This document shows positions 17,209 through 35,423 of a stretch of DNA of 35,423 bases, piece by piece. Under the pieces are notes generated by a model. That model had not been told where the DNA came from and searched no databases. It saw nothing but the letters and a program-made list of their open reading frames with translations. Position numbers and translations under genes: made by a program. Numbering within the stretch: position 1 is the stretch's first letter; every line of letters begins with the position of its first letter. This stretch comes from Streptacidiphilus neutrinimicus (lineage in GTDB: Bacteria; Actinomycetota; Actinomycetes; Streptomycetales; Streptomycetaceae): the NCBI RefSeq assembly GCF_000787815.1, contig NZ_BBPO01000069.1, positions 1 to 35,423 of the forward strand, written 5' to 3'.

Positions 17209-19944
<2,736 letters not shown>

Positions 19945-19994
19945 GTGGGCTGGCTCCTTGCCTGGATGGACCGGGCGACTGTATCGGGCACCTT

Positions 19995-20035
19995 GCTCGC
20001 GGTGGTAACGAATAGGCCACCGCGAGCCCATCGTA
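19995..20035 (-). promoter_or_regulatory. secA leader hairpin with candidate -10
   Basis: GCTCGCGGTGG (19995-20005) and its perfect complement (20017-20027) form an 11-base stem with an 11-base loop. Minus-strand TACGAT (20035-20030) fits TANNNT and would start transcription at the edge of this hairpin, placing it at the 5' end of the secA leader. Alternatively the hairpin is a terminator of the glycoside hydrolase gene upstream. Confidence 0.35.
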
Positions 20036-20047
20036 TGCGAGGAGCCC

Positions 20048-20072
20048 GTGCTGCCGGGAGGTCCGTCAGCAC
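20048..20072 (-). terminator. Possible terminator of the GH114 gene
   Basis: GTGCTG (20048-20053) pairs with CAGCAC (20067-20072), and pairing extends imperfectly with CCC/GGG flanks. It lies about 80 bases past the GH114 stop codon. The stem is short and the loop is 13 bases, so the call is weak. Confidence 0.3.
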
Positions 20073-20149
20073 AGGGCATGGTGTCGTCCGCGCGAGTGGC
20101 ATTCTTTTTGCGTCGACAGCGGTCGAAATCGGACAGCTGAAATACCGCC

Positions 20150-20998
20150 TCAGCAAGTCTGCCGCCAAGCGTCCAGTTCCAGGTGCTTACGGATGGCACT
20201 GATTCCCAGGGCCTGCGTCTGCGCGCAGAACGCCGTAGTCGACACCGAGTACTCCGCGTCGAAGGCTGGCTTGCCGGCCTTCACGAAAGCGGTCAACGCC
20301 GCGCACTGGCGCAGTTCGGCGCACTGCTCGTCCACCCCGTAGTCGAACTCCGACGCGAGGTCCGCGACCTGGTCGAAGTCGTTCTTCAACCCCACGGCCA
20401 GGCCCCGCTGATGGGCGAGCCGGGCGACGGCACGGTCGAAGGCGAGCTGGTCGGCGGCGGTGAGCGGAAAGCCGGTGTCGTTCTCGTAGCCGTCCACGTT
20501 GTCGGGCTCGACCCCGTCGAAGCCCTTCGCGCGGCACTCGTCGAGGCGATGGGCCAGCAGCGGCGTGAGCAGGTCGAGGCGCCGGATGTCCAGCCACCGT
20601 TCGTCGGGCCAGCCGTCGAGGGGCTTGCCGAGCAACTCCTTCGGGTACTTTCCGGCGTCCGGCCGATACGGTTCCCAGCTCCCCGCGTTGACGTAGCAGA
20701 CGACCCGCCGTCCGGCGCGGTGCAGCGCGGCGACGACGGTGGCCGCGTTGTCGTCGGCGTCGATGTCGTAGACGCCGGCGCGGACGGAGGTGTCGACGGG
20801 CGTGGTGAGCTGCCACTGCCAGCTCAGTCCTGCCTGCGGCCGCCACCACGAGGCGGCGGCGGAAGCTGGAGCGGCGGAACCGGAGTCGGCGGAACCGGAC
20901 GAGGCGGAGGCCTGCCGAGGCGAGGGTCCGCCCGCGCAGGCGGTGAGCATCGCCCCGAACAGCACGGCCGCGATCATCAGGGCCTGCGTTCTTTTCAT
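20150..20998 (-). CDS. Endo-alpha-1,4-polygalactosaminidase-like lipoprotein (GH114)
   Basis: Secreted glycoside hydrolase of 282 aa. The N-terminus [10 protein letters not shown] and lipobox MLTAC (Cys 21) predict a lipoprotein, followed by a Ser/Ala-rich linker to about residue 50. The rest fits the GH114 TIM barrel: [38 protein letters not shown], then [19 protein letters not shown] (Asp 161, Glu 164, Asp 166 region) and [11 protein letters not shown] (Glu 224), the segments carrying the catalytic acids in the family. Known members cleave alpha-1,4-linked galactosamine polymers, as the PelA hydrolase and fungal Ega3 do. It is the last gene of the polysaccharide locus and starts 22 bases after the membrane protein gene, behind a purine-rich AAAGAAAGAAG ribosome binding region unusual for this genome. 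Confidence 0.85.
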
Positions 20999-21020
20999 GT
21001 ACTTCTTTCTTTTTTCATCG

Positions 21021-22463
21021 TCACCGGTGCCGGGTCGCGGTGGCGAGGGCGAGGACGGCGAGCGCGAAGAGCGCCCCCGCCGCGACGACGCCCACCCAGG
21101 CCTGTGCCGTTCCCGCCTCGGCTCCCGCCAGCCGCGTCACCACCAGGGCGAGCGCCGCCGCGGACACCCCGAGCGCGGCCCGGCCGAGCAGGCCGAGGGA
21201 CTGCAGCAACTGGGCACTCCAGATCGCCGCGGCCAGCGCCGTGAGACCGCCTACGCCCGGGCCCGAGGCCCCGGGCCAGATCCGCTCGGCGAGCCAGGCC
21301 AGCCCCGCGACGAGCAGCAGGTAGCCGCCGAGGCAGCGCAGCAGCGCGCCGACGACCAGCCCGTGGAACTCCCGCGCGGCCGCGGCCCGCCCCAAGGCCA
21401 GCTCCGTCGCCCCACGGCACCGGGCCAGGAACCACTCCGCGCCGCCCATGCTGAGCGTCAGCGCCACCGTCGTCGGCCCGACGTCGGCCAGCGTCAGCAC
21501 GGCGACCGCCAGGCCGAACACCCCCGCCTGGCCCGCCTCCCGCCACGCGAGCCGCTCCCGGCGCCCCGTCGAGCCCCTCCACGGTGCGGCACGCCCCGTC
21601 TCCCGCCAACCCGCCCGGACCGTCAGCACCAGGGAGAGCAGGACGAGGCCCACACCCACCGGCCCCGGCGGGCCCGGGAGTCCGGCCGGTCGGGCGCCGA
21701 GCAGCCAGAGCGCGCCGCACGCGACCGGCATGAGCGGGCCGACGAGCGCGCGTTCCCGGCCGAGGACCAGCAGCGCGGTCGCCGAGGCGAAGTACAGCCC
21801 CTGCCCGAGCGCGTACCCGACCGCCGCCGGCGGCGAGCCCGACAGCACGGCCGCGACGGCGGCCACCGGCAGCCAGAGCACCACGCCCGCCACGCCCCCA
21901 CGGGCCAGACACTCGGCCGCGGCGACGGGCTCGCCCCGGCCCAGCCGCAGATAACCGAGGTGGGCCACCCCCTGGCTCCAGCTCCAGCAGAACAGCAACG
22001 CCGCGCCCGCACACCACAACGAGCCCGGCGGACGCCCCGCCAGCACGAACGCGAGGCCGGGCAGCGCGAACAGGACCCCGCGCAACGCGCTGCGCGATGC
22101 GGGCACGCCCCACGCCGAGGCACGCGCCGGGCCGCGGGCCAGCCGCAGCCGCACCCGCTTGGGCACCGCGCCGCCCGACGCGCGCTGCCCCTCCGGATGC
22201 GCGCGCCGGAACAACTCCTCCCCCAGCTCGAACGCGTCGCGTCGGCCGTAGCGCTGCTGTATCTGACGGTCGCTGAGGCCCTCGGCCTCCAGCGCGGCGA
22301 CCAGCTCCAGCGCGTGCACGGCTCTCTCGGCGACCTCGGCGAAGCGCAGCGCTATCTCCTCGGCCGGATCCTGCGCGACCGCGTCCCGCACCGCCACCCG
22401 GGGCAGCGCCGCCGGCACGGGATCGAGCCGCAGCCCCCGCACCAGCTCGACGAAGCCGCTCAC
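21021..22463 (-). CDS. Polytopic membrane protein of the polysaccharide locus (possible exporter, PelG-like role)
   Basis: A 480-aa protein not recognised with certainty. Residues 1 to about 115 are soluble and partly helical, with LSDRQIQQRYGRRDAFELGEELF suggesting a small helix-turn unit. About eleven or twelve hydrophobic segments follow, from ALRGVLFALPGLAFVLAG to the C-terminal AGALFALAVLALATATRHR. PelG, the membrane partner of PelF in Pel systems, also has about 12 segments and a similar core length, but the soluble N-terminus here is extra and I see no PelG signature. The GTG start at 22463 overlaps the PelF-like stop by four bases (GTGA), which strongly ties the two products together. 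A role in polymer export or synthesis is inference from position and topology. Confidence 0.75.
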   Translation of the reverse strand: MSGFVELVRGLRLDPVPAALPRVAVRDAVAQDPAEEIALRFAEVAERAVHALELVAALEAEGLSDRQIQQRYGRRDAFELGEELFRRAHPEGQRASGGAVPKRVRLRLARGPARASAWGVPASRSALRGVLFALPGLAFVLAGRPPGSLWCAGAALLFCWSWSQGVAHLGYLRLGRGEPVAAAECLARGGVAGVVLWLPVAAVAAVLSGSPPAAVGYALGQGLYFASATALLVLGRERALVGPLMPVACGALWLLGARPAGLPGPPGPVGVGLVLLSLVLTVRAGWRETGRAAPWRGSTGRRERLAWREAGQAGVFGLAVAVLTLADVGPTTVALTLSMGGAEWFLARCRGATELALGRAAAAREFHGLVVGALLRCLGGYLLLVAGLAWLAERIWPGASGPGVGGLTALAAAIWSAQLLQSLGLLGRAALGVSAAALALVVTRLAGAEAGTAQAWVGVVAAGALFALAVLALATATRHR

Positions 22464-24271
22464 GCCGCGACCCCGTCGCCCGCCGGCCGCCTCGGTCCGT
22501 CGCCGGGCGCGGGCGGGCCGCCGGGGTCGGACGCGGGCACCGGCGCCGAGCCACGCTGACGTGGCAGACGGGCGCGTGCGGGCAGCGCGCCTGCGGGCAC
22601 GGGCGCGTGCGCGGACACGGGCACGGGCACGGACGCGGACAGGGACGCGGGCAGGGGTCGGCCGGGCTGAGCACCGGCCGTGCTGCTCGGCGGATCCGAG
22701 CCGAACCACCCCGCCCCGAACTGCGCCGCCCCGAACTGCGCCGCCCCGAACTGCGCTGCCTCGAGCGGGGCTGCCTCGAACGGGACTGCCTCGAACGGGG
22801 CTGCCTCGCAGCGGGCTGCCTCGGACTGGGCCGCCGTCGCGCCGCCCGTCCGCGCCAACTCCCCATACAACGAGCGGTACTCGGCCACCGTGCGCTCCAC
22901 GGTGAACCGTTCCGTCACCCGACGCCGCGCGGCCGCGCCCAGGCGGACGCGCCGCCCGGGATCGCGGAGCAGGGCGAGCGTCGCGGCGGCGAGGGCCTCG
23001 GGCTCGCGGGCGGGGACGACCAGGCCGGTGTCGCCGACCGCTTCCCGAACGCCCCCGACGTCGGTGGAGACCGTCGCCCGGCCGCAGGCCATCGCCTCGA
23101 TCAGGCTGAACGGGAACCCCTCGGAGATGCTGGACAGCAGCACCACCGTGCCCGCCCCGTAGGCGTTCCTGACCTCCTCGATGCGGCCCTCGAAGACGAC
23201 GCCCTCGGTGATCCCGAGCTCCGCCGCCAGCGCGTCGAGCCGCGCGCGGTACTCCTCTCCCCCGGCCGGGACGCCGCCGAAGAGGCGCAGCCGCACCTGC
23301 GGCAGTTCGGCGCGAATCAGCGCGAAGGCCCGCAGCAGCGTCTCCAGGTCCTTGATCGGGTCGATCCGCCCGGCCCAACTGAGGGTCAGCTCCTCGGGCT
23401 CGGGGCCGGCGACGGGGAACTGCCGAAGGTCCACGCCGTTGTAGACGGTGCGGATGCGCCGTGGGTCGCAGCCGCCGTGCTCCTCCCAACGGCGGTTGTA
23501 CCGGTTGCACGGCGCGACGACGTCGGCGCAGCGGTAGCTCTCCGCAGCGAGCATCCGGTAGAAGCCCAGTAGCAGCGTCTTCACCGGGCGACTGAACGGC
23601 GGGTTGCGGAAGCCGAGGAAACGCTCGCGCAGGTAGATGCCGTGCTCGGAGAGGAGCAGCGGCACGCCGTGGAACCGCCGGGCGGCCAGGGCCGGCAGCG
23701 CGGCGAGCCCGCCTGTCGCCACATGCGCGACGCCGCGCGCGGGCGGCTGGACGGAGAGCGGGCGCAGCGCGTGCTCCAGCAGGTCGGTCCCCTCCAGCGC
23801 GTCGCGCAGGCTGGGCCGGTCCCGGCTGGTGGGCAGGAACGGCAGCCGCCAGACGCCCTGGAGCGAGCGCAGCGCGCCCTCGGTGCGCAGCGCTGCGGTC
23901 AACGAGCGGCCGGTCAAAGCGAGTTCGGAGAGCTGGTAGAGCTCGTCGGCGAAGTGGTGCTCGAAGTCCGGGTCGAGCAACGAGAGCAGGAAACGCTCGT
24001 AGCCGGCCAGGAAGCGCCGCAGCGCCCTGCCGCGCGGCGCCCGGCCCTCGGGCGTCGGACCCCACAGCGGCACGGTGCTGACCGAGACGACCTGCCTCGG
24101 CAGCGGCCAGACCACCGGCTCGTCGCCGGACCCGGTGATCCCCAGGACGTGGAAGCGCACATCGGGCATCCCGTGGACCAACTGGTCGCACCAGGTGCTG
24201 ACGCCGCCGTGGATGTACGGATAGGTGCCCTCCGTCAGCAGGGTGACCTCAAGCGGTCCCGGGCTGTTCAT
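22460..24271 (-). CDS. PelF-like GT4 glycosyltransferase with a low-complexity C-terminal tail
   Basis: Cytoplasmic glycosyltransferase of 603 aa, expected to polymerise UDP-sugar (UDP-GlcNAc/GalNAc in Pel). The start VTLLTEGTYPYIHGGVSTWC is the hallmark of PelF. The N-terminal fold continues with LLSEHGIYLRERFLGFRNPP and CNRYNRRWEEHGG, and the GT4 donor domain has LSWAGRIDPIKDLETLLRAF and the EX7E-type segment SEGFPFSLIEAMACG (about residues 382-396). PelF proteins normally end near residue 500. This one adds about 120 residues: nine five-residue repeats (EAAPF/GAAQF type) coded by a 15-base tandem repeat, then a Pro/Ala/Val-rich stretch. ATG 24271 follows a GAGGGGG ribosome binding site. 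A 13-base terminator-like hairpin separates it from the deacetylase gene upstream, and it is coupled to the membrane protein downstream. Confidence 0.88.
   Translation of the reverse strand: MNSPGPLEVTLLTEGTYPYIHGGVSTWCDQLVHGMPDVRFHVLGITGSGDEPVVWPLPRQVVSVSTVPLWGPTPEGRAPRGRALRRFLAGYERFLLSLLDPDFEHHFADELYQLSELALTGRSLTAALRTEGALRSLQGVWRLPFLPTSRDRPSLRDALEGTDLLEHALRPLSVQPPARGVAHVATGGLAALPALAARRFHGVPLLLSEHGIYLRERFLGFRNPPFSRPVKTLLLGFYRMLAAESYRCADVVAPCNRYNRRWEEHGGCDPRRIRTVYNGVDLRQFPVAGPEPEELTLSWAGRIDPIKDLETLLRAFALIRAELPQVRLRLFGGVPAGGEEYRARLDALAAELGITEGVVFEGRIEEVRNAYGAGTVVLLSSISEGFPFSLIEAMACGRATVSTDVGGVREAVGDTGLVVPAREPEALAAATLALLRDPGRRVRLGAAARRRVTERFTVERTVAEYRSLYGELARTGGATAAQSEAARCEAAPFEAVPFEAAPLEAAQFGAAQFGAAQFGAGWFGSDPPSSTAGAQPGRPLPASLSASVPVPVSAHAPVPAGALPARARLPRQRGSAPVPASDPGGPPAPGDGPRRPAGDGVAA
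22701..22835. repeat. 15-base tandem repeat (nine units) inside the PelF-like gene
   Basis: Nine contiguous 15-base units. Units 2-4 (CCGAACTGCGCCGCC) are nearly identical, and units 5-9 are of the TCGAACGGGGCTGCC type. The frame is kept, giving a five-residue repeat in the protein. Such repeats vary in copy number between strains by replication slippage. Hexanucleotide-like repeats (GGGCAC type) follow at about 22595-22660. Confidence 0.9.
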
Positions 24272-24303
24272 ACGGGCTCGGCCCCCTCGGGCGTTCGTGG
24301 CGG

Positions 24304-24338
24304 GCCAGGGCCCGGGGCGTTGCGTCCCGGGCCCTGGC
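24304..24338 (-). terminator. 13-base perfect hairpin between deacetylase and PelF-like genes
   Basis: GCCAGGGCCCGGG (24304-24316) pairs perfectly with 24326-24338 around a 9-base loop, 75 bases past the deacetylase stop codon and 33 bases before the PelF-like start. It looks like an intrinsic terminator without U-tract. Since no promoter fits in the remaining 33 bases, it may attenuate or process the transcript rather than end it. Confidence 0.65.
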
Positions 24339-24412
24339 TCTGCCGTATGTGCGACTGGTGAAGAAGGTGGTGCTCGACGGCTCTGTCCGTCCGTTCCTTA
24401 CGGTGCCCGCGG

Positions 24413-26629
24413 CTACTTGCGTCCCTGCGGGAGGAGCGCGACACCGGCCGGGGTCAGCGGTACCTGGAGTGCCACCGACGCCGGCTGTGCCGGCTTGGTC
24501 TGCGCCGGGGCGACCGCCGTGGGTGTCGCGGCCTTGGTGCCCGACGCAGCGGGTGCGGCGGGTGTGCCCGCGGAGCTGAGCGTGAGGGTCACCGCGCCCT
24601 GGAGCAGCTTGGGCGCCAGCCATCCGGAGAGCTCGCCCGCGTAGGCGGTGCCGGCGGCCGTCGCGCCGAGACCGAGCAGGCCCGGCTGAACCGTCCCGTT
24701 CGGCATGGTGACCGGGACCCGCACCCCGGACGGGGCCTGCACGGTGACGGTGCCGCCCACCCGGTAGGCCGTGACCTTGCCGGCGGACACCGCCGACTGC
24801 CAGGCGCTGCGCTGCTGCAGTTCGGCGCCGATCGCGGACTCGCGCAGGTTGACCATCGGGGCGTTGGCCGCCATCAGCTGGTTGTAGGTGGCGAACAGGG
24901 TGTCCAGCACCGGGTAGAGGATGCGGTCCTCGGCCAGGTTGGACTGGTGGGCGTAGTGCGGGTCGGGGTTGTCGCCGAGAACGTGGCCCATGTCGATCCG
25001 GGCCTCCAACGGCACGATGTAGCTGCTGTAGCCCGTCAACTCGTCCAGCGGGGCGGACAGGCAGGTGGTCGTCGCCGGGTTGGCGGTGCAGGTGCCGCTG
25101 CCGCCCTGGGAGGTGGCGGTGTAGAGCCAGTTGTACTCGTCGACCTCGTCGGCCACCTTGCCGGCGTTGTAGTAGACGTTCATCGGGAAGCGCGGCACGG
25201 TGAGCGCGTTGCCGACAGCCCGCTGGTCGGGCTCGCGGGAATGGTCGCTGCCCGTCCACTTGACGCCCTCGGCGTTCAGCGCGGGCGCGAGGTTGGGATT
25301 GTCGACGGGCTGCTGCGGCAGCGTCTTCAGGCCCGAGTGCTCCCCGGTGACCAGCTCGGCCCGGTCGATGGAGAGCCCGTGCCGGGCGGCCCAGGCGACG
25401 TTCTGGCTGATCGCGTTCTCGATGGTCTGCTCGTCGACCCAGGAGACGTTGCCGCTCGCGTCCGTGGTGCAGGACCAGGGGACCGTCGTGGTGTTCTGCA
25501 CGCAGCCCAGGAACGGGTGATCGTAGGTGTGGTCGACCCAGCGGAACGAGGACTTGTTCTGCAGCAGCGCGTCGGTCAGCGGGTCGTCGACCGTGCCGTT
25601 CTGGGTGGCGTCGTCGCTGCCGCCGCCATTGAAGAGGAAGTCGAAGGTGAAGTTGTGCACCTGCTCCCACTGCACGGCGTAGCTGACGTCGGCCGGGGTC
25701 ATCCGGATCTCGGAGGAGGCCGGGGCGCCCTGGCAGGCGGAGGCGGCGTCGCCGGGCGTGCACTTGGCCGTGGAGCTCCACCGGTCGTCCGGGAGCAGGA
25801 CGTCGTCGACGTTCATCGAGAAGTAGTCGCGGTCGAAGCCGAGGTGGATGCCCTGGGTCATCCAGTCGACGATGCCGCGGGCCAGCAGCCGGTACTGCTG
25901 CTGGTACTGGTTGTAGTCGAAGGTGAGCACCAGCTCGGAGACGCCGCCGTGGTCGTACTCGCCCGCGAGCACGCCCTGTGTGCCGCCCCCGCCCGGGATC
26001 GGCATGGTGACCAGCGGCGTGAACGCGGCCCCGGACGCCTGCGTGGCCAGCGGCGTGGCCAGATACCCGTAGCTCTCCGTCACGTTCGGGTCGTTGTCCT
26101 CGAAGGGGACGCTGCCCTTGAGGTAGTCGAAGGCGCCGCCGAGCCCGGCCGAGGTGACAATGCCCTGCATGCCGTCGAGCGCCCCGATGTAGCCGGGGCT
26201 CGCGGCCCAGTTGAGGCCGACGGCCGGCTGGGCGTAGGTGTAGGCGTCGACCTGGCGCACGCCGAACTGGGCCTCGTAGCTCCGCAGTGCGGCCATCTCG
26301 GCCGAACCGGCCGGGAACGGGGCGTTGTTGGGCAGCACCACGGCCTGGTACCGCCCCTCCGCCCGGCCGGAGCCGTCGGTGCCGCTGAGGAACGCGGCGT
26401 TGATCACCGGACGGCTCGCGTCGTTCAGGCTCACCCGGGTGTAGGGCGTGCCGGTGAGATCGAGCTCGTTGACGATGGCGGCCACGGACGGCCCTCCGTC
26501 GTCGACCACGAGCACCTTGAGGTCGATGCGCTGCGTGCCGCTCGCCGCCTGCGCCCCGGCCGCCGGCGTCATGCACGCCAGCAACCCCGCCGCGACGAAC
26601 GCGGCGGCCCATCGGGTCCTGCGACCCAT
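24413..26629 (-). CDS. Secreted polysaccharide deacetylase, Agd3/CE18-like
   Basis: Exported protein of 738 aa with a cleavable signal peptide (RRTRWAAAFVAAGLLACM, cleavage near AGAQAAS). Residues 35-270 form a Rossmann-like domain: LKVLVVDDGGPS, YQAVVLPNNAPF and RSYEAQFGVRQVDAYTY resemble the N-terminal part of the fungal galactosaminogalactan deacetylase Agd3. The deacetylase part follows, with candidate metal and catalytic residues Asp 275/276 (FSMNVDDVLLPDDRW), His 367 and 371 (VDHTYDHPFLGC) and His 431 (LVTGEHSGLK), matching the D-H-H layout of NodB-like/CE18 enzymes. A beta-rich region and an Ala/Pro/Thr-rich tail end the protein. The ATG 26629 has GGAGGGG five bases upstream. It begins the polysaccharide locus and should remove acetyl groups from the exported polymer. 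PelA carries this activity fused to its hydrolase; here they are separate. Confidence 0.75.
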   Translation of the reverse strand: MGRRTRWAAAFVAAGLLACMTPAAGAQAASGTQRIDLKVLVVDDGGPSVAAIVNELDLTGTPYTRVSLNDASRPVINAAFLSGTDGSGRAEGRYQAVVLPNNAPFPAGSAEMAALRSYEAQFGVRQVDAYTYAQPAVGLNWAASPGYIGALDGMQGIVTSAGLGGAFDYLKGSVPFEDNDPNVTESYGYLATPLATQASGAAFTPLVTMPIPGGGGTQGVLAGEYDHGGVSELVLTFDYNQYQQQYRLLARGIVDWMTQGIHLGFDRDYFSMNVDDVLLPDDRWSSTAKCTPGDAASACQGAPASSEIRMTPADVSYAVQWEQVHNFTFDFLFNGGGSDDATQNGTVDDPLTDALLQNKSSFRWVDHTYDHPFLGCVQNTTTVPWSCTTDASGNVSWVDEQTIENAISQNVAWAARHGLSIDRAELVTGEHSGLKTLPQQPVDNPNLAPALNAEGVKWTGSDHSREPDQRAVGNALTVPRFPMNVYYNAGKVADEVDEYNWLYTATSQGGSGTCTANPATTTCLSAPLDELTGYSSYIVPLEARIDMGHVLGDNPDPHYAHQSNLAEDRILYPVLDTLFATYNQLMAANAPMVNLRESAIGAELQQRSAWQSAVSAGKVTAYRVGGTVTVQAPSGVRVPVTMPNGTVQPGLLGLGATAAGTAYAGELSGWLAPKLLQGAVTLTLSSAGTPAAPAASGTKAATPTAVAPAQTKPAQPASVALQVPLTPAGVALLPQGRK

Positions 26630-26854: not shown

Positions 26855-26873
26855 CGCTGTCAGTGGCCCGGCC

Positions 26874-26879
26874 TAGGCT
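26874..26879 (+). promoter_or_regulatory. -10 element for leaderless ycaQ-like transcript
   Basis: TAGGCT fits TANNNT and ends seven bases before the ATG at 26887. There is no ribosome binding site at the proper distance. This arrangement is typical of leaderless genes in streptomycetes. Confidence 0.5.
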
Positions 26880-26886
26880 GCGGGAC

Positions 26887-28071
26887 ATGGCGACACCTCT
26901 CGAGCTCTCCAGTGACCAGGCCCGCCGGATCGCCCTGCGCGCCCAGGGGCTCCTCGGCGCGCCGGACCGCCGCGGCGGTGTGCGGGCGATGCTGCGCCGG
27001 CTGGGCTCGGTGCAGTTGGACACCATCTCCGTGCTCGCCCGGTCGCACGAGCTGATCCCCTACGCCCGGCTCGGCGCGGTCGGGCGCGAGGCGGTGGAGG
27101 CCGCGTACTGGAGCGGCAACCGCTCGTTCGAGTACTGGTCCCATGCCGCCTGCGTGCTGCCGGTCGAGGAGTGGCCGCTCTTCGCCTTCCGGCGCCGGGC
27201 CTTCGAGCGTCGCGGCCACCGCTGGCACCGGATGGAGGACGCGGAGCGCTCCTGCGCCGAGATCGTCGCCAAGCTGCGCGGCGAGGGGCCGCTCACCACC
27301 AAGGAGTTGGGGGGCGCCAAGCGGGGCGGCGAGTGGTGGGACTGGTCCGAGTCCAAGATCGCCGTCGAGTGGCTGCTCGACACTGGCGTCGTGGTCTGCG
27401 CGGAGCGCCGCGGCTGGCGTCGCGTCTACGCGCTGGCGGAGCAGGCCGTCCCGGCCGAGCTCCTGGCGGCGGAGCCGGACGACGAGGCCTGCCTGCGGCA
27501 GCTGGTGCTGCAGTCCGGCCAGGCCCTCGGGGTCGCCACCGAGAAGGACTTGGCCGACTACCACCGGCTCCGGGTGGAGCAGGTCACCGCCGCGCTGCCG
27601 AGCTCGGGGCTGGTGCCGGTCCGCGTCGCGGGCTGGGAGCGGAACGGCTTGTCCGGGCGGCCGGCGCGGGCCTGGGCGGATCCCGCCGCCCTCGCCGCCG
27701 AGCCGCGTGGGCGTCACCGCACCACGCTGCTCTCCCCGTTCGACTCGCTGATCTGGGACCGCGCCCGCACCGAGCGGATCTTCGGCTTCACCCACCGCCT
27801 GGAGGCGTACACCCCCAAGCACAAGCGCGTGCACGGGTACTTCACGATGCCGCTGCTCGTCGGCGGCCGCCTGGTGGGCCGGGTCGATCCGGCCCGCGAG
27901 GGCACGACGCTGGTGGCCCGGCAGGCCTCGCTCACCACGCCGAGCGCCCTCCCGGCGCTCGCCGAGGCGCTGCGCGAGGCGGCGCAGTGGGTCGGCTGCT
28001 CGTCCGTGCGGGTCGAGCAGCTCCACGACGAGACGCTGCGGGCCCCGCTGGAGAAGCTGCTGGCCGCCTGA
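26887..28071 (+). CDS. Winged-helix DNA glycosylase, YcaQ/AlkX type
   Basis: Predicted interstrand-crosslink or alkylation DNA glycosylase, 394 aa, of the HTH_42 (AlkZ/YcaQ) family made of tandem winged helices. The catalytic motif is LGSVQLDTISVLARSHEL, giving Gln 43-Leu-Asp 45. This QxD form marks the YcaQ/AlkX branch, whereas AlkZ self-resistance enzymes carry QxQ. Other conserved parts are EYWSHAACVLPVEEWPLF, the SPFDSLIWDRARTERIF block near residue 285 and YFTMPLLVGGRLVGRVDP near 318. That points to general repair rather than protection against a self-made alkylating antibiotic, and no such biosynthetic cluster is seen. ATG 26887 is chosen over an upstream in-frame GTG because of the leaderless promoter. 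It is convergent with the response regulator gene, 10 bases apart. Confidence 0.9.
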   Translation: MATPLELSSDQARRIALRAQGLLGAPDRRGGVRAMLRRLGSVQLDTISVLARSHELIPYARLGAVGREAVEAAYWSGNRSFEYWSHAACVLPVEEWPLFAFRRRAFERRGHRWHRMEDAERSCAEIVAKLRGEGPLTTKELGGAKRGGEWWDWSESKIAVEWLLDTGVVVCAERRGWRRVYALAEQAVPAELLAAEPDDEACLRQLVLQSGQALGVATEKDLADYHRLRVEQVTAALPSSGLVPVRVAGWERNGLSGRPARAWADPAALAAEPRGRHRTTLLSPFDSLIWDRARTERIFGFTHRLEAYTPKHKRVHGYFTMPLLVGGRLVGRVDPAREGTTLVARQASLTTPSALPALAEALREAAQWVGCSSVRVEQLHDETLRAPLEKLLAA

Positions 28072-28081
28072 GCCGGGAGGG

Positions 28082-28750
28082 TCAGCCTATTTCGAGGATC
28101 TTCTCCCGCATCGCGTAGACCACGGCCTCCATGCGGGAGTGGAGCTGGAGCTTCTCCAGGATGTTGCGGACGTGGTTCTTCACGGTGTTCTCGCTGATGA
28201 ACAGCTGCTTGGCGATGTCCCGGTTGTTGAGCCCGGTGGCCACCAGCTTGAGCACCTCCATCTCACGGTCCGTCAGCCGGGGTGCGGGCAGCAACTCCTG
28301 TTGGTCGGTCCGCTTCTGGATCATCGACTTGAACTCCGTGAGCAGCTTGGCCGCCATGGAGGGGCTGATCTGCGACTGGCCGTCCGCCACGGCGCGGATC
28401 GCGGTGGCCACCTCGTCCGTGGAGATCTCCTTGAGCAGGTAGCCGGTGGCCCCCGCCTTGATCGCCTCGTAGAGGTCGGCCTCCTCGTCGCTGATGGTCA
28501 GCATGATGATCTTCGTGCTGGGTGCGACCTCCTTGATGGCCGTGCACGCCTCGATGCCGCCACGGCGCGGCATCCGCACGTCCATCAGGATGATGTCGGG
28601 CAGCAGGTCGGCCGCCTTCTCCACGGCCTCGGCCCCGTCCCCGGCCTCGCCGACGACGGCGATGTCCTCCTCCTGGGCCAGGACGATCTCCAGTCCACGC
28701 CGGAACAGCGCGTGGTCGTCCACGACCAGCACCCGGATCGGCTCCACCAT
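28082..28750 (-). CDS. NarL/LuxR-type response regulator (orphan)
   Basis: DNA-binding response regulator, 222 aa. The receiver domain (1-125) has the acidic pair DD (11-12), phospho-acceptor Asp 57 in DIILMDVRMP, Thr in MLTISDEE and Lys in YLLKEIS. A linker rich in Gln and Lys leads to a LuxR HTH (about 155-218): LTDREMEVLKLVATGLNNRD and ISENTVKNHVRNILEKLQLH. GGGGGAGGG five bases upstream supports ATG 28750, and an in-frame ATG at 28768 lacks such a site. No histidine kinase gene is adjacent. The position just downstream of the hibernation factor gene is conserved in streptomycetes as I remember it. Targets are unknown. Confidence 0.95.
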   Translation of the reverse strand: MVEPIRVLVVDDHALFRRGLEIVLAQEEDIAVVGEAGDGAEAVEKAADLLPDIILMDVRMPRRGGIEACTAIKEVAPSTKIIMLTISDEEADLYEAIKAGATGYLLKEISTDEVATAIRAVADGQSQISPSMAAKLLTEFKSMIQKRTDQQELLPAPRLTDREMEVLKLVATGLNNRDIAKQLFISENTVKNHVRNILEKLQLHSRMEAVVYAMREKILEIG

Positions 28751-28826
28751 CCGGTCCCTCCCCCTCATGGGCGGCTTTCAGCGACATGATTCCACGCTTC
28801 GTGGTGATCGCCATCACGCGCCAGAA

Positions 28827-28861
28827 GAGGGTTCCCCCGGAAGTGTGCCGGAGGAACCCTC
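28827..28861 (-). terminator. Terminator of the hibernation factor gene
   Basis: Arms 28827-28840 and 28848-28861 (14 bases, one mismatch) with a 7-base loop, 52 bases past the stop codon of the hpf gene and about 75 bases before the response regulator start. It separates the two transcription units. Confidence 0.75.
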
Positions 28862-28913
28862 GGTCATGCTGTGCCGCCCGTCCTGCTGTGGCGCTGCGCC
28901 GTCAGGCGGGCCG

Positions 28914-29537
28914 TCACTCCTCGACCTTCAGGTGGATCACACCGTAGTCGTATGCGTGGCGCCGGTAGACCACGCTCGGCTGGAGCGTGTCGGAGTCCAC
29001 GAACAGGTAGAAGTCGTGGCCGACCAGTTCCATCTCGTACAGCGCCTGGTCCAGCGCCATCGGTGCGGCGGGGTGGGTCTTCTCGCGGACCACCAGCGGC
29101 CCGTCACCCTCCACCGCCACGGATCCCTGCATCGTCCTCTTGGGCGGGCTCAGCTCCTCGGGCGTCGCCTGCCCCGGCGTGTCCGACAGCGCGGCGGTCG
29201 CCTGGGCGACGCTCATCGGCGCCCGGGGCCCCTTGCTGATCCGCCGTCGGTCCGCGGCCTTGCGCAACTGCGCGTCCAACTTGGCGGACGCGAGGTCGAG
29301 CGCGGAGTACGGGTCGGAGGAGCTCGCCTCCGCCCTGATCACCGGGCCACGGCTGCGGAGCGTGATCTCCACCTGGTCGGCGTGGTCGGACTGGCGCGGG
29401 TTGTGTTCCTTCGAGAGCTCCACGTCCACGCTGATCACCTTGCCGTCGAGCTTGTTGATCCGCTCGAGCTTCTCGGCGACGTGCCTGCGGAACCGCTCCG
29501 GAACCTCGGTCTTGCGACCCTTGACGACGATGTCCAC
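28914..29537 (-). CDS. hpf: Long-form ribosome hibernation-promoting factor
   Basis: Binds the 30S decoding centre and dimerises ribosomes in stationary phase or stress; 207 aa, the long form. The N-terminal RaiA/YfiA domain starts DIVVKGRKTEVPERFRRHV and has VDVELSKEHNPRQSDHADQV and VEITLRSRGPVIRAE. A charged linker (about 100-145) leads to the dimerisation domain with PMALDQALYEMELVGHDFYL and SVVYRRHAYDYGVIHLK. GTG 29537 has CGGAG six bases upstream. An in-frame ATG at 29564 would add nine residues not found in the family and lacks a ribosome binding site. The leader carries a hairpin and a cluster of GGAAC boxes. Confidence 0.95.
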   Translation of the reverse strand: MDIVVKGRKTEVPERFRRHVAEKLERINKLDGKVISVDVELSKEHNPRQSDHADQVEITLRSRGPVIRAEASSSDPYSALDLASAKLDAQLRKAADRRRISKGPRAPMSVAQATAALSDTPGQATPEELSPPKRTMQGSVAVEGDGPLVVREKTHPAAPMALDQALYEMELVGHDFYLFVDSDTLQPSVVYRRHAYDYGVIHLKVEE

Positions 29538-29564
29538 GCAGAACTCCGATCCTTCGCGCTTCAT

Positions 29565-29591
29565 GCCCGCGGACCCATAGGTCCGCAGGGC
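29565..29591 (-). promoter_or_regulatory. Leader hairpin of the hibernation factor gene
   Basis: GCGGACC-CATA-GGTCCGC with a flanking CCC/GGG extension across one bulged base (29565-29591). It ends 27 bases before the GTG start, just upstream of the ribosome binding site. It could affect message stability or translation. Confidence 0.4.
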
Positions 29592-29925
29592 CCGTCGAGT
29601 ACGCAGCCCCACCCGCTCGGGGGGTCGGGTGGAACCGCCCCTCTGTCCCCTTCATCCCCAGTGGGAACGGTGGGAACCCCATGGAACAACGGTTCCCCGG
29701 AATTCGCCTGTCCGACACGGGGCTGAAGCCCCCGAGTCAGGGAGCCATACGTCCTGCCGTCCAAATTCGCCGTGCGCGCGGTCCTTGTACAGCCCCCGCG
29801 CGGCAGCAGCCCCCGTTCGGATGAACATCACGTGAATGGCCCTCGTCATCGGGGTGGTCGGGGCACTCTTGGCACTCCTTCCGTGTGTACCTCCGACCGT
29901 ATCTCCTTCTCCGTGGGGAGGCTCC
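29592..29925. other. Divergent intergenic region between hpf and comF
   Basis: About 330 bases without a supported gene. It holds CCACCCG-N10-CGGGTGG (29609-29632), a cluster of GGAAC boxes including GGGAACC-N12-GGTTCCC (29672-29697), the near-palindrome GGGGCTGAAGCCCC (29719-29732) and a tandem GGCACTC (29862-29868, 29871-29877). Promoters for both genes must lie here, but I could not place convincing -35/-10 pairs. Confidence 0.5.
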
Positions 29926-30630
29926 GTGGAACGGTCACCGATTCGCGCCCTCGACGCCGTGTTGGACCTGCTGCTGCCCACCGTCTGCGTGGGCTGCGGC
30001 AGCCCCCACGCGCAGTTGTGCGCGCCCTGCCGCGTCGCGCTCGAGCAGCCCGACCCGAGCCGTGCCAGGCCCGGCCACCCGCCGCCCGGCCTGCCCGAGG
30101 TCTACGCGGCGCTGCCCTACGGCGGAGCCGTCAGACAGGCTCTGCTGGCCCACAAGGAACGCGGTGCGATGCGGCTCGCCGCGCCGCTCGGCCGCGCGCT
30201 CGCCCGCGCCGTGCACACGGCGGTTCCGCTTGCCCTCGCGCCTCACCGGTGCACCGCGCGCCCCCTGCTGCTGGTGCCGATGCCGTCCACGGCGTCGGCG
30301 ACCCGCGCCCGTGGCCACGACCCGACCATCCGTCTCGCGCGTGCCGCGACGGCGTCGCTACGCTCCCACGGCGTCCCCGCCCGCGTAGTCCCCGCACTCC
30401 GCCACGCCCGCGCCGTCGCCGACCAGGCCGGGCTCGACGCCCCCGCTCGCCGCCGCAACCTCGCCGGCGCGCTCCGCCTCACCCGAGGCGCCGACGCCCT
30501 CCTCCACACCGGCCATGTCGTGGTCGTCGACGACCTCGTCACCACCGGCGCGAGCCTCGCCGAGGCGACCCGTGCCCTCTCCGACGCCGGTGTCGACGTC
30601 CTGGCCGCCGCGGTCGTCGCAGCGGCGTGA
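29926..30630 (+). CDS. comF: ComF-family phosphoribosyltransferase-like protein
   Basis: Protein of 234 aa related to ComF/GntX. A zinc-ribbon-like CVGC and CAPC pair lies at residues 21-35, followed by VYAALPYGGAVRQALLAHKERG. The C-terminal type I phosphoribosyltransferase domain has VPMPSTASATRARGHDP, RRRNLAGALRL and the PRPP-loop HVVVVDDLVTTGASLAEA. ComF proteins serve DNA uptake in competent bacteria, but actinomycete members are of unclear function. GTG 29926 has GGGGAGG four bases upstream. An earlier in-frame ATG (29836) would add a hydrophobic stretch not found in the family. The stop codon is only 15 bases from that of the convergent lpqB. Confidence 0.9.
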   Translation: MERSPIRALDAVLDLLLPTVCVGCGSPHAQLCAPCRVALEQPDPSRARPGHPPPGLPEVYAALPYGGAVRQALLAHKERGAMRLAAPLGRALARAVHTAVPLALAPHRCTARPLLLVPMPSTASATRARGHDPTIRLARAATASLRSHGVPARVVPALRHARAVADQAGLDAPARRRNLAGALRLTRGADALLHTGHVVVVDDLVTTGASLAEATRALSDAGVDVLAAAVVAAA

Positions 30631-30645
30631 CCGCAGGCCTGCGCC

Positions 30646-32496
30646 TCAGCCGGGGAAACGCACGCCGCTTCCCCGGCTCGACGAGGATTCGGTGATCGGA
30701 AGCCAGCGGAACGCCGACAGCTGGGAGTAGAAGATCTCGTTCTGCTGGTCGGGGTTCTTCGCCGTGGCGAGCAGCCACTGCAGGTCGCCGGGCAGGGTCG
30801 TCACGTCGGTGACACCGCTCAGCGTCTGGATCGTGCCGAGCGAGGACGGGCTGCCGTCCATCTCGACGGGGATGACGCTGGTGGTACCGCTCTGCTGGCC
30901 CACGACCACCAGGCCGTCGCCGTCCTGCCACGACAGCGAGGAGATCGAGGTGATCCCCGCCGCCGTCTGCCGAAGCTCCTCCACGGACAACGAGGGCGTC
31001 TGGTGGGTGGCATCGTCCGCCGCGAGGTGCCGCACCCGGCCGATCTCGACCGTCGTGTTGTCCCCGGTCTTCACCAGCAGCGCGATCCGCGCCCCGTCGG
31101 GTGCCACACGGACCTGCTGGATCGTGGCCCCGTCCGGGAGGCCCTGCACGTCGACCGGCACGGACACGCCGCCGGCCACCGCGCGCAGCGTCGTCCCGCC
31201 AGGCTCGGTGTCGACCGCCCACAGCGTGCCAGTGCCGTCCCAGCTGGGCGAGGAGAGCGCCTCCGGCGTGCCGCTGCGCAGCGCCGCCGTCGTCGGCGCG
31301 GTGGTGGCGTGCAGCGTGCTCACGTACAGCGCGCGACCGTCGTCGGAGATGGACGCCACCTGGCCGTCCGCGCCGGGGGAGACCGCGAAGGAGCCGATCG
31401 TGATGCCCGCCGGCACCAGCTTCCCCGGCACGTCCTCCACCGAGGCCGATGCGGAGCCGGCCTGCGGCGTGACGCTGTTCAGACGGTGGTCCGCACCGAG
31501 GAAGTAGGCTGTCGCGCCCACCCGCACTGGGTTGTAGGCGCCCTCCGACGGGGTGGTGCAGATGGGCGACCCGTTCTTGTCGCGGTAGAGCGCTACCGAG
31601 GTCGGCGGGGTGGCCTGGATGTTCAAGGCATCGACGGTGAGCGTGGTGTAGAGCTGCACCGCCATCGTCTGGCAGGCGCCGGGGCTCCAGTCCGCGTCCG
31701 CGCCCAGCGACAGGTAGGCCTTGGCCTGGGAACCGCTGGTGTCCAGCTCGACCTTGGAGTTCTGCGCGTTCGTCGGGAAGCCCGTGGTGACCACCGGCTG
31801 AAGCCAGGTGCTCGGTCCGTCGAGCAACTGCTGCGCCGCCAGCTGCAGCGGATTGTCGACCCGTCCGCGGATGTAGACCGGGTCGGCCACGAGCGGGCTC
31901 ACACCCCCGCTGGTGTGTCCGGCCGCCGCCGGGAAGTACAGGTTGACCGACTGGTATATCCGCTGGAAGTCACGCTGGCTGGTGAGCACGGTCGCCGGCG
32001 GGTCGACGATCCGCCACTGGCCCTTGTCGTCCATCTTGAAGTGGTAGTCGACACTGACCGCCGTACCGGGCGCGGCGGCCGTGTACGAGCCGTGCGTGTC
32101 CAGCGAGGCGTCCTCGGTACCGCTGGCCGTGATCGTGACGCTCTTCGGGTCGGAGCTCCGCTGCTCCTTCAACTGCGGGACCGTGTCCAGCACGTCCACC
32201 GCGCCAGAAGGCTGCCAGTTCGGGTCGCTGAGATAGAGCCGGGCCGTCCGGTAGTCCGACTGGTCGCTGCCCAGAGCGTCCAGGAAGCCGTAGAGCAGCT
32301 GGTCCGGGCGCTCTTGATCGGCCGGCGGCACGGGAATCAGCTCGACGCGGGTGTTCTGCGTGTTTCCCGACGCGGTCGGCCCGAGGGTGACCGGGCCGTT
32401 GCCGGGCATGGTGGCGCAACCGGCCAGCCCGAGAACGGCGCCCGACAGCGCCACAGCGCGGACCGTACGGAACCGCGACTGCTCAGACCTCTTCAC
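30646..32496 (-). CDS. lpqB: LpqB lipoprotein, MtrB partner
   Basis: Envelope lipoprotein of 616 aa, known in mycobacteria to act with the sensor kinase MtrB. The signal sequence VALSGAVLGLAGC gives Cys 27. An N-terminal domain (about 40-190) is followed by a GerMN domain (about 195-320, with NLYFPAAAG and DALNIQATPP) and a beta-propeller LpqB domain (about 330-590). GTG 32496 overlaps the end of mtrB by 14 bases, with GGGAG three bases before the start, so the two are translationally coupled. It is the last gene of the mtrA-mtrB-lpqB operon and convergent with comF, with no hairpin in the 15-base gap, so transcripts from both sides may overlap. Confidence 0.96.
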   Translation of the reverse strand: MKRSEQSRFRTVRAVALSGAVLGLAGCATMPGNGPVTLGPTASGNTQNTRVELIPVPPADQERPDQLLYGFLDALGSDQSDYRTARLYLSDPNWQPSGAVDVLDTVPQLKEQRSSDPKSVTITASGTEDASLDTHGSYTAAAPGTAVSVDYHFKMDDKGQWRIVDPPATVLTSQRDFQRIYQSVNLYFPAAAGHTSGGVSPLVADPVYIRGRVDNPLQLAAQQLLDGPSTWLQPVVTTGFPTNAQNSKVELDTSGSQAKAYLSLGADADWSPGACQTMAVQLYTTLTVDALNIQATPPTSVALYRDKNGSPICTTPSEGAYNPVRVGATAYFLGADHRLNSVTPQAGSASASVEDVPGKLVPAGITIGSFAVSPGADGQVASISDDGRALYVSTLHATTAPTTAALRSGTPEALSSPSWDGTGTLWAVDTEPGGTTLRAVAGGVSVPVDVQGLPDGATIQQVRVAPDGARIALLVKTGDNTTVEIGRVRHLAADDATHQTPSLSVEELRQTAAGITSISSLSWQDGDGLVVVGQQSGTTSVIPVEMDGSPSSLGTIQTLSGVTDVTTLPGDLQWLLATAKNPDQQNEIFYSQLSAFRWLPITESSSSRGSGVRFPG

Positions 32497-34627
32497 GCGC
32501 TCCCTCTCCCTCGTGCGACCCGTCCGCTTCCCGCCCCTCCCGGCTCTCCCGCGGCCCCCGCAACTCCCGGGACGCGTCCGCGGGCGCCTCGTCCGTGCGC
32601 GTCGTCACCGTGCCGGGGACGACGACCTGGGCGCCGCCGGGGGCGAAGCCCGCCCCGAGACCGGAGACACTGCCCAGGTCAGCGGGGTTGCCGGCTGGCC
32701 CGGGACGTGTCGGCCCGGGCAGGGCCGGGATGACCGAACCGTAGCCGAGCACGCCGCCGAGACCCGGACCGAGGCTCGGCTGCCCGGGGCTCTGCTCCAG
32801 CTCACCCGCGGCGGGCGGGGCCGTCGCCCCGGCCGGGCGGGGCCGGCGATAGGGGCTGCCGGAGATGTCGAGGCCGCGATTGCCGCGCGAGTCCTCCGGC
32901 TCCAGCGGGATCGGGGACCGGGTGATCTCCGTACCGGCGCTGCGCGGAATGGTCAGACGGAACTGCGAGCCGCCGCCCGGCTCACCCCAGGCGTGCAGCC
33001 AGCCGCCGTGCAGAGCGGCGTCCTCCAGCGCGATCGACAGACCGAGGCCGGTGCCGCCGGTCGTCCGGGCACGGGCCGGGTCGGCACGCCAGAAGCGGTT
33101 GAAGACGCGCGCGGCCTCACCGGGCTTGAGCCCGATGCCGTGGTCGCGCACCGCGACCGCCACCGCGCCGTCCCGCGTGGCCATGAGCACCTCGATGTCG
33201 CGGCCCTCGCCGTGCTCCAGGGCGTTGACCACGAGGTTGCGCAGGATCCGCTCGATCCGCCGGGGGTCGCACTCGGCCACCACCGGCTCGTCGCCGCCGA
33301 CGATCCGCACCGCGCTGCCCTTGCGCTCGGCCAGCGGACCGGCCCCGTCGATCACGCGACCGACGACCTCGCGCAGATCGGTGGGCTCCGAGTCGAGGAT
33401 CGCGGCCCCGGCGTCGAACCGGCTGATCTCCAGCAGATCCGCCAGCAGCGACTCGAAACGGTCCAGCTGGTTCTGCAGCAGCTCGGCGGAGCGCATCGCC
33501 ATCGGGTCGTCGAAGTCCTCGCGGGCCTCGTAGAGCAGGTCGGCGGCCATACGGACCGTCGTCAGGGGCGTGCGCAGCTCGTGCGAGACGTCCGAGACGA
33601 AGCGGCGCTGGACGCGTGAGAGCTCCTCCAACTGCCGGATCTGCGCCTGCAGCGCCCCGGCCATGCGGTTGAACGATTCGCCGAGGCGGGTGATGTCGTC
33701 CGTGCCGGAGACCTTCATCCGCTCCTCGAGGTGGCCGGAGGCCAACTGCTCGGAGATCTCCGCCGCCATCCGCAGCGGCGTCACCACCTGGCGCACCACC
33801 AGCCAGGAGATCGCGCCCAGCAGGATCACCACGAAGACCCCGGCGGTCGCCAGCGTCCCGGTGACCAGGTTCAGCGTGCTGGTCTCCTGGGTGAACGGGA
33901 AGACGTAGTAGAGCTGGTAGGAGCCGTTGACGGCCGCGTTCGCGCCGCTGCCGTCGTTCGGCAGCGATATCTGCTCACCGATGACGACGCCCGGCTGGCT
34001 CTGGGCGCCGTTCTGGAACGTGACCGTGGTGTACGCGCCCTCGGGGCTGCCCGGACTCGCCGCCACCCGCTGCTGCAGATCCGCGGGGATCGTCGCCGTC
34101 GGATCCACCCCGCCCGTGGCGGGCATGGCCCGGGACGTCGCGTTCGAGGAGTCGCCGCTCGTCGGCAGCCCGACCACGTAGTAGGACCCCGCGCCGCTCG
34201 AGGCCAGCGTCGAAACCTGCTCGTTCATGACCTCGCCGACGTCCGGCAGCGACTCCGAGCCGGCGCCGACCCCCGTCTGCGAGGACGCGCTGCCGCCCGT
34301 CTTGTGGGCGTACCCGCTCAGCGCCCCCGCGGCGGTCTTGGCGGCAGCGAACCCGCTCTCCGCCTGCGTCTGCGCCGACTGCATCTTGGTCTGCAGCAGG
34401 CCGTTGCGGACCTGGTTCATCACGACGACGCCCAGGAGCAGCACCACGCCGAGCGAGAGCACGAGCGTCATCGCCACGACGCGCAGCTGGATGGAACGCC
34501 GATACAGCCCGACGGCACGCCGGGCCGGCCTCCGCAGCTGCCGCCACAGGGCACTGAACAGAGACTGTTGGGTGGTAGACCGCCCGCCGTCCGTATGGGG
34601 CAGGGCGGCGGAGGCCTGACCGCTCAT
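32483..34627 (-). CDS. mtrB: Sensor histidine kinase MtrB
   Basis: Membrane kinase of 714 aa that phosphorylates MtrA. A first membrane segment (about 48-72, VVAMTLVLSLGVVLLLGVVV), an extracellular sensor of about 170 residues, and a second segment (about 245-268) lead to a HAMP domain. The H-box is FVSDVSHELRTPL (about 340-352), the N-box RILRNLVVNALEHGEG (about 460-475), followed by RDHGIGLKPGE and GGTGLGLSIALE. Roughly 150 C-terminal residues form a Pro/Gly-rich then strongly charged tail (ESREGREADGSHEGEG). ATG 34627 comes one base after the mtrA stop codon (TGAGATG). It lacks its own good ribosome binding site, so coupling is likely. Confidence 0.97.
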   Translation of the reverse strand: MSGQASAALPHTDGGRSTTQQSLFSALWRQLRRPARRAVGLYRRSIQLRVVAMTLVLSLGVVLLLGVVVMNQVRNGLLQTKMQSAQTQAESGFAAAKTAAGALSGYAHKTGGSASSQTGVGAGSESLPDVGEVMNEQVSTLASSGAGSYYVVGLPTSGDSSNATSRAMPATGGVDPTATIPADLQQRVAASPGSPEGAYTTVTFQNGAQSQPGVVIGEQISLPNDGSGANAAVNGSYQLYYVFPFTQETSTLNLVTGTLATAGVFVVILLGAISWLVVRQVVTPLRMAAEISEQLASGHLEERMKVSGTDDITRLGESFNRMAGALQAQIRQLEELSRVQRRFVSDVSHELRTPLTTVRMAADLLYEAREDFDDPMAMRSAELLQNQLDRFESLLADLLEISRFDAGAAILDSEPTDLREVVGRVIDGAGPLAERKGSAVRIVGGDEPVVAECDPRRIERILRNLVVNALEHGEGRDIEVLMATRDGAVAVAVRDHGIGLKPGEAARVFNRFWRADPARARTTGGTGLGLSIALEDAALHGGWLHAWGEPGGGSQFRLTIPRSAGTEITRSPIPLEPEDSRGNRGLDISGSPYRRPRPAGATAPPAAGELEQSPGQPSLGPGLGGVLGYGSVIPALPGPTRPGPAGNPADLGSVSGLGAGFAPGGAQVVVPGTVTTRTDEAPADASRELRGPRESREGREADGSHEGEGAREEV

Positions 34628-34628
34628 C

Positions 34629-35315
34629 TCAGTTCGGACCCGCCTTGTAGCCGACACCGCGGACCGTCACCACGATCTCGGGACGCTCCGGGTCCCGCTC
34701 GATCTTCGAGCGGAGCCGCTGCACGTGGACGTTGACCAGGCGGGTGTCGGCGGCATGCCGGTAGCCCCAGACCTGCTCCAGCAGCACCTCACGTGTGAAG
34801 ACCTGCCACGGCTTCCGCGCCAAGGCGACCAGGAGGTCGAACTCCAGCGGGGTCAGCGGGATGCTGCGCCCCTCGCGCTTCACCGAGTGGCCGGCGACGT
34901 CGATCACCAGGTCGCCGATGGTCAGCTGCTCCGGGCTCGGCTCCTCGGCGCGACGCAGACGCGCGCGCACGCGGGCGACGAGCTCCTTCGGCTTGAACGG
35001 CTTGGTCATGTAGTCGTCCGCACCGGACTCCAGGCCCACCACGACGTCGACCGTGTCGGTCTTCGCGGTCAGCATGACGATCGGCACGCCGGACTCGGCG
35101 CGGATCTGCCGGCAGACGTCGATCCCGTCCCTGCCGGGCAGCATCAGGTCCAGGAGTACGAGGTCAGGCTTGACCTCCCGGAATACGGACAGAGCCTTGT
35201 CGCCGTCCGCGACGAAGCTCGGCTCGAACCCCTCTCCACGCAGCACGATGCCAAGCATCTCGGCCAGAGCAGTGTCGTCATCGACGATCAGGACGCGTCC
35301 CTTCATGGTGTCCAT
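34629..35315 (-). CDS. mtrA: Response regulator MtrA
   Basis: OmpR-type regulator of 228 aa that in actinobacteria controls cell-envelope, division and, in streptomycetes, developmental and antibiotic genes. The receiver has the DDD acidic cluster, phospho-acceptor Asp 56 (53 if counted from the later start) in DLVLLDLMLPG, Thr in MLTAKTD and Lys in DDYMTKPFKPKE. The winged helix has TPLEFDLLVALARKPWQVFT, YRHAADTRLVNVHVQRLRSK and VTVRGVGYKAGPN. Two starts are possible, ATG 35315 (MDTMKGR) and ATG 35306 (MKGR). Neither has a strong ribosome binding site. It heads the mtrA-mtrB-lpqB operon. GTTAC- and GTCAC-like words at 35348-35382 on the minus strand resemble halves of reported MtrA sites and may indicate autoregulation. 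Confidence 0.97.
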   Translation of the reverse strand: MDTMKGRVLIVDDDTALAEMLGIVLRGEGFEPSFVADGDKALSVFREVKPDLVLLDLMLPGRDGIDVCRQIRAESGVPIVMLTAKTDTVDVVVGLESGADDYMTKPFKPKELVARVRARLRRAEEPSPEQLTIGDLVIDVAGHSVKREGRSIPLTPLEFDLLVALARKPWQVFTREVLLEQVWGYRHAADTRLVNVHVQRLRSKIERDPERPEIVVTVRGVGYKAGPN

Positions 35316-35382
35316 GGTCTCAGATCCGAAACGTGACCTGGGGCACACTGGGCGAGACTTCTGCCACAACCTGCCGGTAACG

Positions 35383-35423
35383 CAGTAGAGCCCCCCTGGC
35401 ACAAGGCCAGGGGGGCTCTACTG
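35383..35423. terminator. 18-base perfect hairpin at the right edge
   Basis: CAGTAGAGCCCCCCTGGC (35383-35400) pairs perfectly with 35406-35423 around a 5-base loop ACAAG. Read on the minus strand it would terminate a gene beyond the window and insulate mtrA. The stem may continue past the last base. Confidence 0.8.

Follow-up and report, generated by a model that had tools for sequence, protein, structure and literature searches.

Gene clusters that join an Agd3-like polysaccharide deacetylase to a glycosyltransferase (GT) are described from both fungi and bacteria. In Aspergillus, the galactosaminogalactan (GAG) cluster consists of uge3, gtb3, agd3, ega3 and sph3, the last being the Spherulin-4 gene (PMC4817252). 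Bamford et al. 2020 (PMC7229062) found that 30 of the 35 bacterial species in their tree have agd3 inside or close to operons that also code for predicted carbohydrate-active enzymes. A cytoplasmic GT is encoded in every agd3 operon identified there, always together with a multispanning membrane protein; GH114 recurs with high consistency, and some Actinobacteria also have Spherulin-4. In Gram-positive Pel systems the deacetylase is a deacetylase-only PelADA, flanked in bacilli by hydrolase-like and galE genes (Whitfield et al. 2020, PMC7112168). Here we analyze a four-gene locus of this sort in the soil actinobacterium Streptacidiphilus neutrinimicus, located in a stretch of 35,423 nucleotides (contig NZ_BBPO01000069.1, assembly GCF_000787815.1, from here on the window). 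A first-pass annotation made from the sequence had reported four consecutive minus-strand genes, all of which were found at their places (Table 1): an Agd3-like deacetylase, a PelF-like GT4, a membrane protein and a GH114 protein. With a probability of about three in four, this is a reduced actinobacterial agd3-type exopolysaccharide operon, working by GT4 polymerisation, MOP-like export, partial deacetylation and GH114 trimming. Judging from the genes, its most likely product is a partly deacetylated, cationic matrix polymer of alpha-1,4-linked N-acetylgalactosamine (GalNAc) and galactosamine (GalN).

Like the bacterial agd3 operons, those of Actinobacteria included, the window combines an Agd3-like deacetylase, a cytoplasmic GT, a multispanning membrane protein and GH114, and it differs in lacking the Spherulin-4 seen in some of them (PMC7229062). 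With the Aspergillus cluster it shares the Agd3-like and Ega3-like proteins and a GT, whereas the epimerase and Spherulin-4 are missing from the window and present in the full loci of other Streptomycetaceae; in addition, Gtb3 is a putative transmembrane GT, while GT and membrane protein are separate here (PMC4817252). The pelDEADAFG operon of Bacillus cereus also has a PelF-like GT, a deacetylase apart from the hydrolase and a membrane exporter. In contrast to it, the window has no PelG by sequence, a deacetylase fold nearest to Agd3, and four genes without PelD or PelE (PMC7112168). The first-pass annotation had pointed to a fungal-like split of enzymes beside a bacterial PelF; given the bacterial agd3 operons (PMC7229062) and the split Gram-positive PelA (PMC7112168) already known, this is no unusual hybrid of fungal and bacterial forms. 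The annotation's picture of the fungal cluster as a GH114, CE18 and GT4 set was right about the shared enzymes and left out sph3, whose Spherulin-4 product has no counterpart in the window (PMC4817252). This kind of cluster has therefore been described already, and the window is a reduced member of it. For this operon in Streptomyces no title was found in a literature search that mostly did not cover subscription journals.

Both the enzyme assignments and the Pel- or GAG-like pathway proposed at first are supported. The PelF-like GT scored 173.5 bits with DUF3492 (cut-off 23.3) and passed the NCBIfam PelF equivalog cut-off of 100 at 165.8 bits. It ends in a low-complexity C-terminal tail of ~130 amino acids (aa), lengthened by a 15-bp array, the protein being 603 aa long against 482 to 571 aa in 78 relatives (chosen starts). 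The GH114 protein, annotated from the start as a polygalactosaminidase, reached 269.5 bits with Pfam (cut-off 27), and its best PDB matches were the structures of Ega3 (6ojb, E 2.1e-55). The catalytic Asp189 and Glu247 of Ega3 are 58 residues apart (PMC12054363), the same spacing as D166 and E224 of the window protein, and by alignment this pair is invariant in the 55 of 55 named loci that have a GH114 gene. A previous count with a fixed pattern (11/63) had demanded particular neighbours of the catalytic pair at positions that vary, and is superseded by the alignment. Near the N-terminus, behind a hydrophobic stretch, the window protein has a lipobox-like LTAC, and 62 of 63 copies have such a pattern ahead of the domain, at a distance of 110 residues or less, the pattern being loose and some genomes being counted twice. 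An enzyme that may act at the cell surface would also fit a galactosamine-containing cell-wall glycan or capsule, bound to the wall instead of released as a matrix polymer. We consider this rather unlikely, since the characterised relatives, Agd3 and PelA, act on matrix polymers. A search with the window GH114 returned only itself in the window's genome.

The deacetylase begins with a signal-like segment (judged by eye). Its AlphaFold model (mean pLDDT 83.0, pTM 0.85) had Aspergillus Agd3 (6nwz) as the best PDB match, with an E-value of 2.0e-28 and TM-scores of 0.63/0.70. Direct sequence comparison with the PDB gave no match, either with the single protein or with a profile, and for this reason bridge proteins were used. 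The window protein (P0004) matched a distant protein, L143, at E 2e-25, and this one in turn matched 6nwz at E 7.8e-13; the Agd3-like protein of another locus, L200, matched 6nwz by sequence at E 4.2e-23. The catalytic motifs of Agd3, CM1 (DD), CM2 (HxxxH), CM3 (Arg) and CM4 (His), all align in the window deacetylase, and 80 of 80 relatives keep these residues unchanged. The invariance is not circular because the loci had been chosen by two other peptide patterns. Predicted fold and catalytic residues together support, as had been claimed, an Agd3/CE18-like deacetylase, which would act on an alpha-1,4-GalNAc polymer.

The membrane protein had no Pfam match at E 0.1. In its structure model (mean pLDDT 85.7, pTM 0.78) an N-terminal helical domain (residues ~22-109) is followed by 12 long C-terminal helices, in keeping with the 12 segments counted in the first place. 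All five PDB matches below E 0.001 found by Foldseek were MATE/MOP proteins, with WzxE and MurJ matching at weaker E-values, so that the model supports a place in the fold class of the MOP superfamily (MATE, Wzx, MurJ) and nothing finer. As a PelG it was rejected on sequence, by Pfam, by hhalign and by a search with PelG (PF16933), which had no match in the window's genome. In genome G080, from another actinobacterial lineage, locus L200 (6351-13175) has consecutive PelF, PelG and Agd3-like genes and a convergent Spherulin-4 gene. It resembles the window in keeping a PelF-like GT and an Agd3-like deacetylase together, and differs in that the gene between the two encodes a true PelG (470.9 bits), a position taken in the window by the 12-helix protein. 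Genome G051 also has PelG adjoining an Agd3-like match. These gene rows support, without proving it, the idea that the 12-helix protein stands in for PelG. It is possible, although we would put it somewhat below even odds, that the Streptomycetaceae export a GAG-like polymer through an undescribed MOP branch that has an N-terminal helical domain of its own and replaces PelG as the partner of a PelF-like polymerase; the full eight-gene operon would then correspond in bacteria to the fungal cluster, and Gtb3 would be a fusion of GT and exporter. The membrane-protein family deserves a name.

We scanned named genomes for relatives of the deacetylase and obtained 445 stretches encoding one, of which the best 80 were analysed. 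These loci come from Streptacidiphilus, Streptomyces, Kitasatospora, Actinacidiphila and Streptantibioticus and are not a sample of all bacteria. The extra genes were named by Pfam in two loci and in the rest by profiles made from one of the two; the alignments included 59 of 72 relatives for the membrane protein (complete genes) and 39 of 79 for the deacetylase. A full set of PelF, membrane protein, epimerase 1, nucleotidyltransferase, epimerase 2, Spherulin-4 and GH114 accompanies the deacetylase in 47/80 loci. The five functions of the fungal cluster (epimerase, GT, deacetylase, GH114 and Spherulin-4) are thus all present in these 47/80, and three of the five in the window. Presence was counted gene by gene in the 67 loci whose downstream sequence extends for 9 kb or more: PelF was found in 66, the membrane protein likewise in 66, Spherulin-4 in 62, epimerase 1, the nucleotidyltransferase and epimerase 2 in 61 each, GH114 in 55 and secA in six. 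The linkage of the GT and the membrane protein with the deacetylase bears on the idea that the enzymes attack a foreign polymer, such as fungal GAG or the Pel of other bacteria, for food or competition. Streptomyces griseus is reported to secrete an active endo-galactosaminidase; however, degradation requires neither the GT nor the membrane protein that go with the deacetylase in practically all these loci. Furthermore, in the window the stop of the PelF-like gene overlaps the GTG start of the membrane-protein gene (sequence GTGA), which suggests translational coupling and makes such a degradative role hardly credible.

Within Streptacidiphilus, 9 of the 13 other genomes of our draw have a full-length deacetylase with at least 73% identity, and in eight of the nine the order AlkZ-like protein, deacetylase, PelF-like GT, membrane protein, GH114 and SecA is identical, three of the eight carrying a Spherulin-4 gene ahead of GH114. 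In the ninth (L032) the contig stops after the membrane gene. Since deacetylase and gene order recur across the genus, the locus is beyond chance. At a broader scale, 396 genomes were drawn evenly from the phylum, the one with the window among them; an Agd3-like match at E 1e-10 was found in 13 genomes, the membrane protein at 1e-5 in nine, and PelG at E 0.001 in 13, seven of them above its cut-off. Among the 11 other genomes listed from the same family, five have an Agd3-like gene, and the operon is therefore common, not universal.

The comparison also gives the history of the locus, which is what is new here. The six loci with secA are all from Streptacidiphilus; none of them has the epimerase block (0/6) and four lack Spherulin-4. 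In the other 61 of the 67, all from outside the genus, the block is always present (61/61), with Spherulin-4 in 60 and GH114, within the stretch covered, in 49. A tree was built from 54 deacetylases, taken from 44 of the 80 named loci, from eight further loci, from L196 and from the window. It is midpoint-rooted for drawing only, and L143 and L196 form long branches of unsure placement in it. The seven Streptacidiphilus rows, including the window, make up one clade (100/100), which groups with six Kitasatospora and Streptomyces rows that have full loci (99/95). Inside the clade, a two-row branch keeps Spherulin-4 and a five-row branch, the window among them, is without it. Because all 61 other loci have the block and the Streptacidiphilus rows nest among them, the missing epimerase looks like a loss, and the compact Streptacidiphilus form can best be understood as reduced secondarily, from the full set to one without the epimerase block and then to one also without Spherulin-4. 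The same-family loci L135, L137 and L141 are likewise without the block. Together with the reduced locus L126, where the downstream sequence is short, they fall with L129 into a separate group (91/81, not a starred branch). Such successive losses on the tree might also mean that the reduced locus has been decaying in Streptacidiphilus, inactive since the epimerase block was lost, and 4/13 other genomes of the genus have only distant deacetylase matches. This reading is compatible with an agd3-type operon in the ancestor; it is distinctly unlikely, since the four reading frames of the window are intact and none of the seven named Streptacidiphilus deacetylases among the 80 has lost the catalytic residues.

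Several observations weigh against an agd3-type GalNAc/GalN operon and are gathered here. The Pfam Agd3_CE score of the deacetylase is 14.5 bits, below the cut-off of 27.6. The CM4 Met of Agd3 (M666), described as highly conserved (PMC7229062), is replaced by Tyr in the window, the 80 relatives having Phe (61) or Tyr (19). In the distant L143 protein the CM3 Arg is Cys, and in three other Agd3-like proteins (L025 to L027) the second His of HxxxH is Thr. The MOP superposition of the membrane protein is loose (TM-scores 0.38 to 0.47 for the MOP proteins; among the 50 matches listed, TM-scores of at most 0.47, rmsd of at least 7.7 and a best E of 2.5e-4), and hhalign against PelG, with a PelG alignment of only four sequences, gave probabilities of 0.1 and 0.2 of 100. 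As first noted, the four genes of the window have no epimerase gene among them, and GH114 was not found in the stretch examined for 12 of the 61 loci from outside Streptacidiphilus. Finally, the PDB matches of the deacetylase model that come after Agd3 are human NDST1 chains (3.6e-16 and worse), ahead of PelA (2.3e-7). The runner-up fold is thus that of a heparan-sulfate N-deacetylase, and N-acetylglucosamine (GlcNAc) substrates are possible. A chain of GlcNAc type, with an NDST-like enzyme as its deacetylase, would also agree with the Pfam score for HSNSD-CE, which at 20.2 bits is weak and falls short of the cut-off of 25. Nevertheless, Agd3 leads the fold matches by twelve orders of magnitude in E-value, and the neighbours, GH114 and in relatives Spherulin-4 and epimerases, are those of GalNAc/GalN pathways, which makes the GlcNAc chain very unlikely.

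In the agd3-type operon that we favour, the PelF-like GT4, working at the inner membrane face, would use UDP-GalNAc to build a chain of alpha-linked GalNAc, and the 12-helix MOP-fold protein, in the PelG slot, would pass it outward. There the secreted Agd3-like metal enzyme would remove part of the acetyl groups, leaving a cationic, sticky chain, and the GH114 protein, which a lipid anchor probably holds on the outer side of the membrane, would cut GalN-rich stretches and so trim or release the polymer. UDP-GalNAc would come from epimerases elsewhere in the genome. We infer for the exported polymer a role in hyphal adhesion or aggregation. The aggregation of streptomycete hyphae into pellets hampers industrial use, and one adhesive described for it is poly-GlcNAc made by MatAB (PMC5972031). 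If our reading is true, there would be a widespread second adhesive of galactosamine type beside it, for which lectins and hydrolases are already available as tests. The series of natural reductions (full set, set without the epimerase block, set also without Spherulin-4) suggests which genes of the pathway are dispensable.

Regarding the rest of the genome, epimerase 1 from a full Streptomyces operon finds its five strongest matches at only 31-37% identity, and therefore UDP-GalNAc would have to be supplied by an epimerase of general function. For epimerase 2 there is a 48% match, at a locus on contig C178 (L024 7943-11979) that contains the second of the two DUF3492 copies of the genome. This locus encodes a PelF-like GT 38.8% identical to that of the window, a shorter membrane protein with an N-terminal motif similar to that of the window protein, epimerase 2 and a ThiF/rhodanese gene. 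In the loci L144-L146, from genomes of the same family, the C178-type locus additionally has Spherulin-4. A lone Spherulin-4 gene (197 aa) is found near pyruvate kinase on contig C103 of the window's genome (L164 9295-9888), with no PelF, membrane-protein or Agd3 match within 19 kb. A search for PelD_GGDEF gave no match in this genome or in any control genome.

The proteins L025, L026 and L027, from genomes of the same genus, are ~1200 aa long and have no PelF, membrane-protein or GH114 match within 19 kb. A deacetylase-GH114 fusion was considered for such distant Agd3-like proteins and excluded by Pfam in L025 and L026, where the extra part consists of immunoglobulin (Ig) repeats; L027 is similar in the alignment.

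Table 1. Features of the four-gene locus and of its flanks in the window.
Feature	Position	Strand	Remarks
Agd3-like polysaccharide deacetylase	24413..26629	-	738 aa; translation, predicted fold, residue alignment
Deacetylase catalytic set	D275/D276, H367/H371, R480, H561		protein numbering
PelF-like GT4 glycosyltransferase	22460..24271	-	603 aa; DUF3492 and GT domains, NCBIfam PelF
15-bp tandem array	22713..22835		8.2 copies; in C-terminal tail region of PelF-like gene
Membrane protein	21021..22463	-	480 aa; translation, structure model, Foldseek
GH114 endo-alpha-1,4-polygalactosaminidase-like protein	20150..20998	-	282 aa; Pfam, Ega3 match
Flank open reading frame containing secA	17209..20199	-	outside pathway; SecA domains; true start ~19950 by eye
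Flank AlkZ-like DNA glycosylase	26863..28071	+	outside pathway; divergent

The membrane-protein and GH114 genes are separated by 22 bases. An open reading frame at 20995-22866 was taken as a spurious frame spanning the PelF tail and the membrane gene. Neither the promoter scan nor Rfam gave a match in the window, and the terminator scan found one, below the number in shuffled sequence. At 28082-35402 the window contains genes for a response regulator, an S30EA-type ribosome-associated protein, an LpqB-type propeller protein, a sensor kinase and a response regulator, a block that presumably includes MtrA and MtrB.

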